The position numbers were made by a program, and so were the translations under genes. A stretch of DNA of 35,726 nucleotides from Opitutaceae bacterium. GTDB taxonomy: Bacteria; Verrucomicrobiota; Verrucomicrobiia; Opitutales; Opitutaceae. Below the pieces are notes generated by a model. The model was not told where the DNA came from and searched no databases. It saw only the letters and a list, made by a program, of their open reading frames with translations. The stretch's first letter is position 1. Every line of letters starts with the position of its first letter. The stretch is from positions 1-35,726 of the forward strand of contig JAIXRU010000282.1 of assembly GCA_027485045.1 (NCBI GenBank). The letters run 5' to 3'. Shown here one piece after another: positions 3,352 through 11,611 of this stretch.

Positions 3352-4197
3352 TCAGGTCGAGAAGGGATTAAATTCCCGTTCGTGGGCGATGGTGCTCAAC
3401 GGACCATGGCCGGGCGCGATTACGGTATCTGGCGGGCAAATACGCAGTACCCGGGCGACCTGCTCGCGCAGACGTTTGCAACAAAAGTAGCCGCCACCGA
3501 CCGAGCCGGCGAAAAGCAAGTCGCCACTGATGAGCAAAGGGGCGGCATGGGGGGCGCCCGGCGCGCGCACGAGGTAGGAGTTATGCGCCTCGGCGTGGCC
3601 CGGAGTCGCAAGGGTTTCGATCGTATATCCGGCGCACTCCATGCGCGTGCCGTCAGCCAGCCCGGCGGCGCCGTTCACCTTGGACCCGGAGGGCGCAAAC
3701 ACCGGGGCGCTAGGATAGAGGCGGCGGACTTCGGGCAAACCACCTGTATGCTCGGTTTCGGCATGGGTAAGGAAAACCGCCGACACTTGATCCACCCGCG
3801 CAGGCCATGCGCGTCGCAGGCGCACGGCGTCCGGACCGGAATCGAAGAGCACACCCTCGCCGCTGCGGCAATCCGTGACGAGATAGGCGTTGGCCGTACC
3901 CAGACCGTGAGGAGCGCGCAACGGGAAGAGGCAGAACGGCAACCCGGAGATCACGGGCAGAGGATAACGATTGGCGGCCAGCGCATGCACGCCTCGCGGA
4001 TTAAGGCCAAGCTCGGTGGCAAGACGATCAAGCTCGGGTGTGGTAAAATCATACCGGTAATCGATGGCGTCACGGATACGCTCTGCGCTCACCGCGGTTC
4101 GAGCAGCCAAGCCCTCGGGCGTTAGGTCGGCCTGACAGAGCGCCTTTTCGAGCACATCTCCCAACTCGTCCTCCAGCAGCGTCTGTTCAATAACCAT
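3352..4197 (-). CDS. Metallo-beta-lactamase-fold protein with helix-turn-helix-like N-terminus, metal site degenerate
   Basis: A 281-residue protein. Residues about 1-80 resemble a short XRE-type helical domain (LTPEGLAARTAVSAERIRDAI, LDRLATELGLNPRGVHAL). The rest is a metallo-beta-lactamase fold of the glyoxalase-II/hydrolase type. The normally invariant HxHxDH motif is altered to THAETEH, losing the second His and the Asp. The later metal ligands look intact (TPGHAEAHNSY, SGDLLFAGSVGG, APGHGPLSTIAHER). It is a paralogue of the protein at 13211-14266, which has the intact motif and the same domain order and tail (GHGPL-T-AHER-NPF). The start is placed at ATG 4197 (MVIEQTLLEDEL); upstream codons belong to the neighbouring gene. 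It follows the exosortase gene by 49 bp on the same strand. It may bind one metal, act on a different substrate, or be non-catalytic. Confidence 0.8.
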   Translation of the reverse strand: MVIEQTLLEDELGDVLEKALCQADLTPEGLAARTAVSAERIRDAIDYRYDFTTPELDRLATELGLNPRGVHALAANRYPLPVISGLPFCLFPLRAPHGLGTANAYLVTDCRSGEGVLFDSGPDAVRLRRAWPARVDQVSAVFLTHAETEHTGGLPEVRRLYPSAPVFAPSGSKVNGAAGLADGTRMECAGYTIETLATPGHAEAHNSYLVRAPGAPHAAPLLISGDLLFAGSVGGGYFCCKRLREQVARVLRICPPDTVIAPGHGPLSTIAHEREFNPFST

Positions 4198-4246
4198 AAA
4201 CGAGCAAAGCTCGGCTAAAACGAATGTCCAACGACCAAAATGCTGC

Positions 4247-5926
4247 TCAGCGTTTATTGGGCAGCAACCCTTCCGGGCCGAGTCGTTCCACCAGTTCGGT
4301 AAACAAGGGATCCTGGGCCAGCAGCGGCCAAGGAGCATTGCTGGAGATGCGCACAAAAAGCTGGGCCTGAGGACGCAGGACGCCCTGCTGTAAGACCAGC
4401 CGCATCAAACTCAGCGCCGAAGTCGGCTTGGCATAAGCAACGGGACGTTTATCCGCAAAATGCCAGAACCAGACATGGCGTCCGGCTTCACCAACCTGAA
4501 ACACCCTTTGTTGCGCCGGTGTCAGGGTGCGTTCGCCGATTTTCAACTCTACCGTATCCGGCACCCCTTCCGCCAGAGACCAACCCGCGCCCGGCCAACA
4601 AGCATCGGGGCTATGCGAAGCAACCAGACTCACCGGAGCCTGCCCCGGGGCCCATGATGCGAGATAAACCGTGACCGCGACCAAGCGCTCCGGAGGTCCG
4701 CTCACATAGGTGCGCTGCAGCAGGTCCTCCGTGCGTAGCGTGGAGGCGAAACGGTAAAGCTCGGAGTCCGACTCCATCCGCCACCCCGGCACGGATTTCG
4801 GTAAAAGGCTATCCAACCGTGAAGCGCCCTCCATCGAGATGGACTCTGATATCGGACGGAGCGCCCAAACAAAAAAGAGGGATCCCAAAACCACCGCTGT
4901 TAATCCAGTCGCCAGCCCGCCTACCCAAGGCCCCGGCAAGTGGAGCTGGCCCTTTATAAAAGAAACCGTGGCTGGCTTCGCCAAGAGGCTTACGAGAGGG
5001 CGGCGTCGCTGCTCGTGACGGGCCAGCATACAGGCCAAACCAGTGAGACAACCAGTGCCGGCCATAAGAATGCTGTAGCCCGTTAAATCGTGCCAGCGGT
5101 CCAAGTCATAACCCTCGACAGCGAGCAGCGTAAGGATGAATGAACGCGTGAAGTTCAGCGCGAGCGCCCCCGGCACCGCCGTTGCGAGCAGGATCATACG
5201 GGCGAACCAACCGCGCGGAAAAACGGCGGCAAGAAACACCGCAGCGTAAACACACGAGATCAGACTGCGCACCCCGCTGCAGGCTTCATCCACGCCGACC
5301 TGACCATTCGGCAGCTCGATAACCGCTCCCATGCGATGAGCGGCCAGGCCCGCGAAATCGAGACTTCGCACGACCAACTCCGTCACCCATAGCTGCAGTT
5401 CAAGGGTTAGGCGCATCTGCGTACCCGGCGGCAAGGGCGCACTCAAAAAAACGAGCAATAGAATGGCTCCGGCGCAAAAATTCAACGGCAGCAGGCGCAC
5501 CGCACGATGCGCCGCCACGAACCAAACCGCCGCCAGGGTTAAACAGAGTGCGACCGTGCCGAGCCAAAGGGATAACGCACTTTGTGCCGTGAGTGCGGCT
5601 ACACTCACTCCTGTGGCGCTAAGAGCGAGCAAGGCCAGCAGACCAGTGATAGAAGTAATCGTTAACCAAAGCCGTCCGCCAGAATGGTATCGTTGCGGGC
5701 CGCCCCGGGCTTCCACGATCAAAGCCACTACCGCAGGCAGAGTGAATAGCCCATGGGTCAGATCCGGATTGGCGCACCACTCGGGGCCCAACCATGCTAT
5801 CCAGCCAAGTGTGATGCCGACCAAGGCCAGACCCGAGAGCCAAAGCAAAGACCGGCATTGGGCCAAAACCGTAGCCGCGCCGGAAGCGGAGGTCAGGGAT
5901 GACCAGGTCATAATGAGGCGGCGCAT
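4247..5926 (-). CDS. Exosortase fused to an EpsI-type C-terminal domain
   Basis: A 559-residue polytopic membrane transpeptidase expected to cleave PEP-CTERM-type tails of exported proteins. The catalytic set is visible: Cys216 in DEACSGVRSL, Arg261 in NFTRSF and His279 in DRWHDLTGYS, within about eight to ten hydrophobic helices (residues 25-350). The C-terminal part (about 350-559) starts with one more helix and then a soluble region of the EpsI (DUF3485) type, with SVPGWR, VTVYLASWAPGQAPVSLVASHSPDACWPGAGW and FWHF. Fusion of exosortase and EpsI is known in several exopolysaccharide-linked lineages. The gene is divergent from a small PEP-CTERM-like gene at 6157, its likely substrate, and is followed by a metallo-beta-lactamase-fold gene. 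MTWSS (codon 6) is an alternative start; neither has a clear ribosome binding site. Confidence 0.9.
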   Translation of the reverse strand: MRRLIMTWSSLTSASGAATVLAQCRSLLWLSGLALVGITLGWIAWLGPEWCANPDLTHGLFTLPAVVALIVEARGGPQRYHSGGRLWLTITSITGLLALLALSATGVSVAALTAQSALSLWLGTVALCLTLAAVWFVAAHRAVRLLPLNFCAGAILLLVFLSAPLPPGTQMRLTLELQLWVTELVVRSLDFAGLAAHRMGAVIELPNGQVGVDEACSGVRSLISCVYAAVFLAAVFPRGWFARMILLATAVPGALALNFTRSFILTLLAVEGYDLDRWHDLTGYSILMAGTGCLTGLACMLARHEQRRRPLVSLLAKPATVSFIKGQLHLPGPWVGGLATGLTAVVLGSLFFVWALRPISESISMEGASRLDSLLPKSVPGWRMESDSELYRFASTLRTEDLLQRTYVSGPPERLVAVTVYLASWAPGQAPVSLVASHSPDACWPGAGWSLAEGVPDTVELKIGERTLTPAQQRVFQVGEAGRHVWFWHFADKRPVAYAKPTSALSLMRLVLQQGVLRPQAQLFVRISSNAPWPLLAQDPLFTELVERLGPEGLLPNKR

Positions 5927-6156: not shown

Positions 6157-7014
6157 ATGCTACCCCGCAACAGATCACTGTATTTCGCAATATGCGGGCT
6201 TATACTTGCGTCAATCACCCGGCTGCTGGCGGGTTCTGCCACGGATGTAACGGGGTTATACTTCACCGGCGTAAACAGCAGTGGAAACGTTTTGGCGGGC
6301 GGCAGTGTAGACCCTAACTGGAACGTTAGCTACGCCTACGCCAATGGTAATTCAGCGAATTCCACCTACATGGGTTCGGCGTATGTGGCGACCACTACGG
6401 ATCCTGGATGGGTACCCAATTCGACCTCAGCCAAATGGATCGTTCCACCCGGCGGTTCAGGCGGCAACGGCGGTTACCAACTCCCGGGCAATGGCACCAC
6501 TGGAAGCAATCGCGCCTACTACATTTACTCGCTCGCCTTTAACATCGCGGGCACGGGCTCGGGCGCCGTCACAAATCAAGTTTCCATCGGCATCACAATC
6601 GCAGCCGACGACATCTACTCCATCTACATTAATCCCGCGTTGAGCAATAACGGTGACATCGCCAACGGAGTCACGGCCGCCGTGACCAATAACAACGGTG
6701 CATGGACCAACACCGGCACGGCCACGCTGGCCAATTTCGGAGCGAATAACAACTCAGTCTTCCAAGTGGGAACCAACTACCTGCGTATATTAGTTAGAAA
6801 TACAAATAGCGCCACCGGTTCCTCAAATAATAACTCGGTAAATCCGACGGGACTTTTGTTTTACCAACAAAATAACATGGTGACCATCGACGGAAGGGTT
6901 ATCCCCGAAGTCGGCACCGTTTTACCCCTGTTGGGCGCGGCGGCGGCTTACATGCTCTATGCCCGGCGTCGCCGTAATCACCCGGCTTCGGCGATGCTGC
7001 AAACTACGGCTTAA
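6157..7014 (+). CDS. Secreted protein with variant PEP-CTERM sorting signal (PEVGT)
   Basis: A 285-residue exported protein. It has an N-terminal signal (RSLYFAICGLILASITRLLAG), then a Gly/Asn/Ser/Thr-rich beta-type region of low complexity (SSGNVLAGGSVDPNW, NTNSATGSSNNNS). The C-terminus has the tripartite layout of an exosortase substrate: motif VIPEVGT, hydrophobic helix (VLPLLGAAAAYMLY) and basic cluster ARRRR. The usual PEP is replaced by PEV. The basic cluster is followed by 13 more residues, longer than usual. It is divergent from the exosortase gene, with 230 bp between the starts, so it is probably the dedicated or principal substrate. Its stop overlaps the convergent TPR gene by 11 bp. 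The function of the mature part is unknown; a surface or matrix protein is likely. Confidence 0.75.
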   Translation: MLPRNRSLYFAICGLILASITRLLAGSATDVTGLYFTGVNSSGNVLAGGSVDPNWNVSYAYANGNSANSTYMGSAYVATTTDPGWVPNSTSAKWIVPPGGSGGNGGYQLPGNGTTGSNRAYYIYSLAFNIAGTGSGAVTNQVSIGITIAADDIYSIYINPALSNNGDIANGVTAAVTNNNGAWTNTGTATLANFGANNNSVFQVGTNYLRILVRNTNSATGSSNNNSVNPTGLLFYQQNNMVTIDGRVIPEVGTVLPLLGAAAAYMLYARRRRNHPASAMLQTTA

Positions 7015-8975: not shown

Positions 8976-10343
8976 TTAGCGACCAACGGCAACGACCTCG
9001 ATTTCGATCAGGGCTTTTTGCGGGAGCGTGCTCACCGGAAAGGAGGTGCGGGCGGGTTTTTGAGGATTAAGTTTCGCGTGATTAAAAAACCTTCCGTAGG
9101 CCTCGTTCCACAGGTCGATGTTTTTACGAAAAGCATCACCGACCACGGGATAGGCGCGCAGTTGCACCACATCGGAAGGCTTTAGACCAGCGGCCGAAAG
9201 ACGGTTACGCAACGTGAGCAAAGCGGTGACACCCTGATCATGCACATCGCCCCCTGGCGTGCCTATCGCACCCGCAAACCAAGTCACGGGCCGCAACCGG
9301 GCTACGGTGCCGGTGCTGCTAATTTGTGCTTCCGGAGTGCCAGTCATTTCAATCCAGGGATTAGTCGCAGCGGTGAGGTCATGGCCATCAAAAGGACCGC
9401 GTGGATCGGCGGCGGCAGCGTAGACTTCGATTTCGATCAACTGACCGTTGGAGCTAAAACCCGGGCCGGTAACCACAGCGAGTGCCGGGCGCAGGTCGGC
9501 GTGCTTGGCCATAAATGCTTTTTCAAATTCGACTCCGAATCCGTTGAAATCGACCTCCTTGCTCCCGGGCGCAGCCGATAAAAGCACACGAACATAGAAA
9601 ACATCCTCCCACCGAAACCCTTGGGCGGCGATGGATTGTTCGAGTTTCTTGAAAATCGAGCGGCTTTGTTCGGCGACCGAGCCATAACGCTCCACCGTTC
9701 GTTCAGGCTTGGTGAGATCGGCCGGATCAGCGAGCACGCCGGCTGAAAAAAGCATCGGTGAACCGGGCAACACCAATACGGCACCCGAAGAACCAAAAGG
9801 GCCCTCACCAACCATGCGAATAAAGGGATTGAACGGTGAGGCTTTGCCCGGAATCACGCCGGAAGCGGGGGTAAAGAAGGCGGCGACCGCCTCGGCTTGA
9901 ATGGTTGAATTGAGCCCCCCGAAAAGGGCATCCGCGGCAATCGTGGTTCGGGTGGGCGTGCGTCCAGCTGGAGCGAAAAAATCACGCCAAGCCGCATTCC
10001 ACGGCTCCATATCGAGGGTGCCATCGGTGCGCGGGGTCAGGCTGGCCCGAACGTAAGCAATATTTTTGCGGTCAAGGCCAAGCAGGGCGAGATTCCGCTC
10101 CAAACCGGTGAGTGCGCTGGCGCCATCGGGAGCGGGCTGGCCAGCGACGAAAACCTTGGTGGCATAGGGCGATACAGTGGCTGAAACCGAGTAGGCCAAA
10201 TTATCCAAAGTTTTGAAAACGATGGGTTCGGTTTGGGCAAAGGCAGTGCCAGTAAGTGCGAAACGGGCACCAAAAAACACCAGAAGACCGAGGACACGAG
10301 GAAGGGAAAAGGAGGGCATGGCAGCGCCGACAGCACATTTCAT
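8976..10343 (-). CDS. Exported protein with three RidA (YjgF/UK114) domains
   Basis: A 455-residue protein with a signal peptide (LPRVLGLLVFFGARFALTGTAFA, cleavage near AFAQ), followed by three RidA-type domains at about 40-165, 180-315 and 325-455. Each ends in the family pattern of an Arg after Pro-Ala/Thr and an E-rich last strand: PTRTTIA...IQAEAVAA, RPALAVV...IEIEVYAAA and PARTSFPVS...IEIEVVAVG. RidA enzymes hydrolyse reactive enamines/imines to 2-keto acids and ammonia, with an Arg holding the carboxylate. All three domains keep this Arg, so each could be catalytic. RidA proteins are usually about 130-residue cytoplasmic trimers, so a single-chain exported triple is unusual. The gene is divergent from a Tat-exported amino-acid-oxidase-like gene, whose product would be an imine. 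A second start (ATG at 10319) would remove eight residues and still leave a signal peptide. Confidence 0.85.
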   Translation of the reverse strand: MKCAVGAAMPSFSLPRVLGLLVFFGARFALTGTAFAQTEPIVFKTLDNLAYSVSATVSPYATKVFVAGQPAPDGASALTGLERNLALLGLDRKNIAYVRASLTPRTDGTLDMEPWNAAWRDFFAPAGRTPTRTTIAADALFGGLNSTIQAEAVAAFFTPASGVIPGKASPFNPFIRMVGEGPFGSSGAVLVLPGSPMLFSAGVLADPADLTKPERTVERYGSVAEQSRSIFKKLEQSIAAQGFRWEDVFYVRVLLSAAPGSKEVDFNGFGVEFEKAFMAKHADLRPALAVVTGPGFSSNGQLIEIEVYAAAADPRGPFDGHDLTAATNPWIEMTGTPEAQISSTGTVARLRPVTWFAGAIGTPGGDVHDQGVTALLTLRNRLSAAGLKPSDVVQLRAYPVVGDAFRKNIDLWNEAYGRFFNHAKLNPQKPARTSFPVSTLPQKALIEIEVVAVGR

Positions 10344-10411
10344 GCAAAAAAGAACGGATTATAAAAAACTTTCACCCCGCTGGGCGCGCCGACTGCTAAT
10401 ATAGTCTCACG

Positions 10412-11611
10412 ATGCAAAGACGTGATTTCCTTCGGCGTTCAACTGCGGTAGTGGGTTTCGGTGCCATTCTGGGCGGTTCCCGCCTCTTGGCCGCGACGAC
10501 CGAAAAGGCTCCGCCGCCGCCCTTACCCTTGGTCACAGACAAAATTGGTCCATTGGCACCGGTCCGGGCCAACATCGACCGCATGATCCGGGTATCGGTC
10601 TGCCTTCGACCGTTTCGGTCCCAAGGTCCACGCATAGAGGGTGAGCGGATTGGCGAAAAAGTGGTAATCCATAACTATGGGCACGGTGGAAGTGGCTGGT
10701 CCTTAGCCTGGGGCTCGGCCGCGATTGCAGTGCGTGAGGCACTCTCTACAGGTGAGAAAAACTATGCGGTAATCGGTTGCGGAGCCATGGGGCTCACCAC
10801 CGCACTCCTGCTTCAGCAATCCGGGGTAAACGTGACGATTTACGCCAAAGACAGGCCAAACGAAGCGCGCTCGGCCTACGCCACCGGGGTGTGGTCGCCC
10901 GATTCACGAATCTGTTCGGAAGAAGGAGCGACGCCGGCCTTTGCCGCACTCTGGGAAAAAATGTGCCGAGACTCCTTCCGGAAATACCAGACGCTGCTCG
11001 GCGTCGCAGGCACGCCGGTCGAGTGGCGCGATCGGTACTCGGTGTCCTCAATCCCGTTTGAGGAACTAAAGAAAAAGCGCGAAGCGGAAGAGGGACCGTA
11101 CAAATTCGGCAAGTTTGGCGACCTCGTAAAAAATCTTACTCCCGGCGCCGAGGAACTCGCGCCTGGCACTCATCCCTTCGGTGTGCCCTACGTGCGACGC
11201 GCCACCTCGATGGTATTCAACATCGCCTCGTTTCAACGTATTTTAATGCAGGATTTTCTCGCCGAAGGCGGGCGCATGGTACGCAAGGAATTCAACACCG
11301 CCGCGGATTTCGCCACCCTGCCGGAAAAAACCATCGTGCACGCCACGGGTTACGGTGCGCGCGCCTTGTTGGGCGACGAATCAGTGATCCCAGTGCGTGG
11401 ACAGCTCGCGTTGCTCATCCCTCAGCCGGAAGTGAACTATAGCCTAAGCGGCGAAGATGTCTCCATGGTCTCGCGCTCGGATGGCATCGTAGTTCAAACC
11501 AGTAAACCGACTGACTTTAACAATACCGACGAGATCCCCAACCGTGCCGACTCTGAAGCCGGGGTTCAGGCCCTGGCAAAGATCATGGTGCCCCTCTGGC
11601 GCGCGATTTGA
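10412..11611 (+). CDS. Tat-exported D-amino-acid-oxidase-like FAD oxidoreductase, circularly permuted
   Basis: A 399-residue protein with a twin-arginine signal (QRRDFLRRS, then a hydrophobic stretch to about residue 28), so it is exported folded with its cofactor. It belongs to the D-amino-acid oxidase/D-aspartate oxidase family, but in swapped order. The block that normally ends such enzymes (CLRPFRSQGPRIEGE, then VIHNYGHGGSGWSLAWG) is at residues 64-101. The FAD-binding start (AVIGCGAMGLTTALLLQQSGVNVTIYA, GxGxxG at 122-127) comes after it. The polypeptide ends where the usual family would lead into the first block. The expected reaction is D-amino acid + O2 to imino acid + H2O2; the substrate is unknown. 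The divergent gene encodes three RidA domains that could hydrolyse the imine. No frameshift is seen; the permuted order looks intact and deliberate. Confidence 0.85.
   Translation: MQRRDFLRRSTAVVGFGAILGGSRLLAATTEKAPPPPLPLVTDKIGPLAPVRANIDRMIRVSVCLRPFRSQGPRIEGERIGEKVVIHNYGHGGSGWSLAWGSAAIAVREALSTGEKNYAVIGCGAMGLTTALLLQQSGVNVTIYAKDRPNEARSAYATGVWSPDSRICSEEGATPAFAALWEKMCRDSFRKYQTLLGVAGTPVEWRDRYSVSSIPFEELKKKREAEEGPYKFGKFGDLVKNLTPGAEELAPGTHPFGVPYVRRATSMVFNIASFQRILMQDFLAEGGRMVRKEFNTAADFATLPEKTIVHATGYGARALLGDESVIPVRGQLALLIPQPEVNYSLSGEDVSMVSRSDGIVVQTSKPTDFNNTDEIPNRADSEAGVQALAKIMVPLWRAI

Follow-up and report, generated by a model that had tools for sequence, protein, structure and literature searches.

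The window, i.e. the whole stretch of 35,726 nucleotides that was analysed, belongs to a contig of an Opitutaceae bacterium. It contains an unbroken open reading frame (10412–11611, + strand), which runs from ATG to TGA and encodes 399 residues; the intact ORF, the Pfam DAO match, crossed matches to PDB chains and an AF2 model mark it as a permuted flavoenzyme of the D-amino-acid oxidase (DAAO) family. Its N-terminus, MQRRDFLRRSTAVVGFGAILGG, is a leader of the twin-arginine type with the motif MQRRDFLRRS; leader and a Pro-rich linker comprise residues 1–37 (10412–10522, +). The block that forms the C-terminal part of canonical DAAO and D-aspartate oxidase (LRPFR...VIHNYGHGGSGW) follows at residues 44–114 (10541–10753, +; block profile, 1.9e-34). 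It contains Arg 66 and, at residues 87–93, the motif HNYGHGG; residues 64–96, which read CLRPFRSQGPRIEGERIGEKVVIHNYGHGGSGW, are occupied by CLRPFRSQGPRIEGE and VIHNYGHGGSGW. Between the two profile matches lie 9 bases (10754–10762, +), which constitute the new junction of the old C-terminus with the old N-terminus. Immediately after the moved block comes the main body (10763–11590, +; main profile, 1.1e-117), i.e. the canonical N-terminal FAD domain (Rossmann, GxGxxG) and the substrate domain. It covers residues 118–393, and AVIGCGAMGLTTALLL starts at residue 119. Thus, the last fifth of the canonical chain has been relocated to the front. The Pfam family DAO (PF01266, 1.7e-26) aligns residues 118–392 with profile positions 2–297 of 353; consequently, the last part of the profile has no counterpart at the C-terminus of the ORF. 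A preliminary description of this DNA had placed the blocks at residues 64–96 and the FAD motif from residue 119, had let the chain end before the canonical final block and had described a single frame not broken by a frameshift; on all these points it had read the ORF correctly.

Upstream, on the opposite strand, a protein of 455 residues with Rid-like repeats is encoded (8976–10343, − strand). It was assigned to the Rid family (PF01042, 6e-21, two stretches); its match to TIGR00004 (Rid hydrolase) of 8.6e-13 is under the cut-off of that family. According to its N-terminal sequence, the protein is apparently secreted. The two divergent start codons, as given by the ORF coordinates, are separated by an intergenic region of 68 bp (10344–10411), which may be a shared regulatory region. 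Elsewhere in the window, a protein encoded at 6157–7014 (+) has a C-terminus, VIPEVGTVLPLLGAAAAYMLYARRRR, that resembles a PEP-CTERM sorting signal.

In order to relate the block order to known structures, the protein was compared with the PDB. Using the single sequence as query, phmmer aligned it with DAAO 7ct4 in a crossed manner: Query residues 115–349 matched residues 23–256 of the chain, and residues 13–112 matched residues 269–377. The same pattern was obtained with A2, a profile of the alignment of 27 permuted homologues, both for 7ct4 (76–349 to 21–300, 20–76 to 319–375) and for 6rkf (75–348 to 9–265, 20–75 to 278–336). For profile A3, which consists of nine rows, the N-terminal block was shifted to the chain end. 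A3 aligned with 7ct4 in a single collinear stretch (2–334 to 27–375, 2.1e-45) and was likewise collinear with 6rkf (1–333 to 15–336) and with pig DAAO (1–333 to 3–332). Crossed matches that turn collinear after the block has been moved back are what a circular permutation should produce; the permutation-aware alignment proposed in the preliminary description thus converted a two-stretch match into one collinear match.

The copy number of the two parts was determined by six-frame searches of the window and of about 40 loci, with separate profiles for the block and the main part. Each gene contained one block and one main part, and the block profile detected no second copy of HNYGHGG in the window, including the C-terminal duplicate that had been named as a finding that would speak against a permutation. 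A weak additional block match (E 0.0009) in the Kozakia locus L137 lies within a different, upstream gene annotated as FAD oxidoreductase. As each block occurs in a single copy, a duplication is excluded; a frameshift of a canonical gene was rejected as well, owing to the intact ORF. The 399-residue ORF of the DAAO family is almost certainly circularly permuted.

For the prediction of the structure, two AF2 runs were carried out. The first one, with the full chain including the leader and nine alignment rows, gave a poor model (pLDDT 48.9). For the second run the leader was removed and two rows from IMG/VR loci were added; the resulting 11-row model of the mature chain reached a pLDDT of 87.7 and a pTM of 0.88. 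Residues 11–110 of this model, which include the moved block, have mean values of 86–97 per ten-residue block. All of the 33 best PDB matches found by Foldseek are DAAO or D-aspartate oxidase (DASPO) structures. Note that the TM values of 0.51–0.61 (query-normalised, about 300 columns) stem from an alignment in sequence order, to which the moved block cannot contribute fully. A fold search in BFVD gave general DAO-type matches only. The predicted DAAO-like fold is well supported by this model, and together with the profile searches, the single block copies and the order kept among permuted homologues, the confident model with its DAAO and DASPO matches bears out the permutation claimed in the preliminary description.

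With respect to the active site, we take Arg283 of pig DAAO to be the residue binding the carboxylate, and Tyr228 (Tyr238 in yeast) to be an active-site residue. According to a HMMER alignment, Arg 66 is the equivalent of Arg283; it is invariant in 27 of 27 rows of permuted proteins, as are His 87 and Tyr 89 to Gly 93 of the HNYGHGG motif. The block with these residues aligns with pig, yeast and fungal DAAO. At the position of Tyr228 the HMMER alignment places Ser 351 of the window protein; the rest of the subgroup formed by the window and alphaproteobacterial proteins has Ser, Leu, Ile, Phe or Gln there, and several other permuted subgroups have Tyr. In addition, the loop preceding Tyr228 is longer in the pig enzyme than in the window protein. 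Because the Tyr228 position is not conserved within this subgroup, the substrate may differ from a standard D-amino acid, and we rate the chance that it is one as slightly below even. Of the earlier designation as a D-amino-acid oxidase, membership in the family stands (PF01266, the HNYGHGG block and the carboxylate-binding arginine), whereas the activity is a prediction, with Ser in place of Tyr228.

The assignment to the Tat pathway is based on the leader. The two arginines of MQRRDFLRRS are invariant in alignment A1, and most permuted homologues possess a twin-arginine leader, after which a lipobox-like cysteine often comes (e.g. LAAC, LAGC, LSGC). Several deep permuted lineages (L074, L076, L088) lack the leader, which means that a permuted chain does not depend on Tat export. 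The TAT-signal family was absent from the Pfam hits at E-values up to 0.5 and from the NCBIfam matches listed. Thus, the earlier label "Tat-exported" is backed by a conserved motif but not by a profile match; given this motif, the flavoprotein of the window is likely to be exported via Tat. That the protein is an exported, amine-oxidising flavoenzyme appears to us quite probable.

Divergent pairs of a Rid gene and a permuted gene were found in five genera of the order to which the window belongs. Among 57 relatives, full-length Rid proteins (E < 1e-50) occur in exactly five genomes (G000, G003, G005, G033, G038), and precisely these five have an intact permuted enzyme belonging to the close group; since three of them are members of a single genus, they do not represent independent events. 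The distant permuted gene in genome G041 has no full-length Rid partner; the linkage was seen in one order of Verrucomicrobiota only, and the neighbours differ elsewhere. A second long Rid-like paralogue, which is unlinked, is present in G000 (contig C276, 5365–6504) and also in G003 and G005. Genes for Rid proteins are known to lie in clusters with FAD amine oxidase genes, and the imines that an amino acid oxidase generates are hydrolysed by RidA and Rid2 (PMC4433059); iminoarginine produced by DauA is a substrate of Rid2 and Rid3 (PMC5619798). Linkage and literature together make a partnership of Rid with the permuted enzyme fairly likely, in which the Rid protein would be the probable imine deaminase.

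Other neighbourhoods raise the question of whether the enzyme is an oxidase. In Komagataeibacter and Kozakia (Acetobacteraceae), a gene for cytochrome c lies directly 3' of the permuted gene (region 4001–5661 of the Kozakia locus L137; region 4827–6568 of L012), which hints at a dehydrogenase in these organisms. By extension, the family could consist of cytochrome- or quinone-linked dehydrogenases of permuted DAAO fold acting on a substrate other than a D-amino acid, e.g. an N-substituted amino acid or an amine. The variable Tyr228 position of the window and alphaproteobacterial subgroup would fit such a function, and Tat lipoprotein-like leaders would suit periplasmic dehydrogenases. However, the window and most other loci have no adjoining cytochrome c gene, and the nearest structures are all oxidases; we regard the dehydrogenase as the less probable of the functions, although one to be taken seriously. 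On two rhizobial plasmids, a gene for a thiamine-pyrophosphate enzyme accompanies the permuted one (L138, 2473–6699; L140, 3888–5636), suggesting a different pathway there.

A search for homologues, as proposed in the preliminary description, showed that the genus of the window and four other genera of its order retain the swapped order, as do further Verrucomicrobiota; it is likewise retained in Komagataeibacter, Kozakia, Erythrobacter, Rhizobium and additional Alphaproteobacteria, in one gammaproteobacterial MAG and in Nonomuraea (Actinomycetota). Relatives of canonical order exist too. HNYGHGG and GxGxxG are 32 residues apart in almost every permuted homologue; a few, for the most part the most distant, have a spacing of 33–38 (36 in L138 and L139). 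A permuted copy was present in 10 of 388 sampled genomes of Verrucomicrobiota and in 14 of 289 of Alphaproteobacteria; a search of 274 gammaproteobacterial genomes found the permuted gene in the seed genome only. The searches that recovered permuted copies also yielded a canonical-order relative in two genomes (G211 and G663), which means that the method sees both orders and does not force one. These two were the only genomes in which the re-permuted profile detected canonical relatives; note that this profile was built from permuted members and is biased towards them. Three viral contigs, all from IMG/VR, contain permuted loci: In L092 (1–5208) the gene lies between terminase-large-subunit-like and portal-like genes, and in L093 and L094 it adjoins recombinase-like and terminase-like genes. 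In Mesorhizobium onobrychidis, plasmid pOM4 carries two overlapping annotated genes, one for the N-terminal block and one for the main part (L140, 2774–3837); the break is almost exactly at the permutation junction and may be a frameshift or a natural split. A remnant broken over two frames (L006/L009, contig C336 of genome G022) is probably a pseudogene; this genome has no full-length Rid partner.

To trace the origin of the swapped order, a maximum-likelihood tree was computed from 31 permuted rows, which had been restored to canonical order, and 11 canonical ones, including fungal 7ct4 and yeast 1c0i. One branch, with support values of 100/96 and present in 100% of the bootstrap trees, separates the permuted from the canonical proteins; in an earlier tree with 8 canonical rows the values were 100/100. 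As the root is not fixed and the canonical sampling is thin, this split is consistent with a single origin but is no proof of it; a single ancient permutation event would seem to be the simplest reading of the tree. The patchy occurrence of permuted members over distant phyla and the weakly supported deep forks on their side of the tree might be taken to mean that the permutation arose repeatedly and independently in different bacterial lineages. This is improbable, since a single supported branch sets all permuted rows apart in every bootstrap tree and the junction spacing is nearly constant. Errors of assembly or annotation, a frameshift or a canonical gene that was partly duplicated are practically out of the question as causes of the swapped order: The source assembly is fragmented (334 contigs, 83.8% complete) and the relative L140 is split in two genes at the junction, but the ORF of the window is one intact frame with single block copies, and the identical order was met with in isolates as well as on complete plasmids (Komagataeibacter, Kozakia, Rhizobium), so that we count this explanation as already refuted by independent genomes.

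DAAO is a textbook flavoenzyme and a workhorse of biotechnology. The DAAOs of Rasamsonia emersonii (7ct4), Rhodotorula (1c0i) and pig (1an9) share with the permuted family the FAD fold, the GxGxxG motif, the carboxylate-binding arginine, the HNYGHGG loop and, after re-permutation, collinearity over nearly the full chain; the window protein differs by its swapped blocks, its predicted export leader and the serine at the Tyr228 position. The same fold, motifs and re-permuted collinearity are found in D-aspartate oxidase (6rkf, 9vpf), of which 6rkf is the second-best PDB sequence match; here, the difference is the block order. Canonical-order bacterial relatives, identified by means of the family profile or in searches that started from L089, are L075 (Verrucomicrobiota), L089 (Alphaproteobacteria) and L141–L147 (plasmids of Actinomycetota). 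They have the same two blocks in normal order and lie on the opposite side of the tree. In known systems, in which Rid works with FAD amine oxidases or with dehydrogenases such as DauA, a Rid gene likewise stands beside a gene resembling an FAD amine oxidase (PMC4433059), or Rid acts on the imine released by a flavoenzyme (PMC5619798); in contrast, the Rid protein of the window is long, multi-repeat and apparently secreted, and its neighbour is a permuted flavoenzyme that is probably exported as well. The relatives in the PLSDB plasmid records examined are annotated as "FAD-dependent oxidoreductase" only, in agreement with the generic labels mentioned in the preliminary description; the reordering is therefore invisible in ordinary annotation. 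No published permuted DAAO or permuted FAD oxidoreductase was found in the literature searched, which was mostly without subscription papers; a permuted sheet reported between monoamine oxidase and electron transfer flavoprotein is a different matter (PMC2916828). What is known, then, is the fold and the signature; what is new is the chain order and the genomic partner of the permuted family.

The simplest route to the permutation would have been a tandem duplication, after which a new start and stop arose. In the permuted chain, the C-terminal piece with the arginine that binds the carboxylate and with the flavin loop HNYGHGG precedes the FAD Rossmann domain, to which it is linked by a short junction. 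The permutation appears to have happened once, in the ancestor of a family whose members today occur in several phyla. The chain should fold, and its active site should assemble, as in ordinary DAAO, and the folded flavoprotein would probably be exported via Tat in the organism of the window. Residues and fold suggest that it would oxidise, with FAD and in the periplasm, a carboxylate-bearing amine (an amino acid or a similar compound) to the imine and pass the electrons to O2 or to a carrier such as a cytochrome; the imine would then be hydrolysed by the divergently encoded, secreted Rid protein, as linkage and literature indicate. We assign a probability of about 80% to this reading as a whole, i.e. 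a permuted DAAO/DASPO family member of single origin that is exported via Tat and converts an amine to an imine for hydrolysis by Rid.

A more far-reaching view is rather unlikely: The old and widespread permuted family might represent periplasmic amine-oxidising systems distinct from DAAO, in which a cytochrome or O2 accepts the electrons of a Tat-exported flavoenzyme, the imine is cleared outside the cytoplasm by a dedicated Rid protein that is secreted and multi-domain, and the substrate is one not known for DAAO. The conserved secreted Rid partner suggests that imines are hydrolysed outside the cytoplasm. The stability of the permutation over several phyla indicates that the DAAO chain can be reopened before the block with the substrate-binding arginine and the flavin loop, and a natural permuted protein of DAAO fold is a ready scaffold for engineering.
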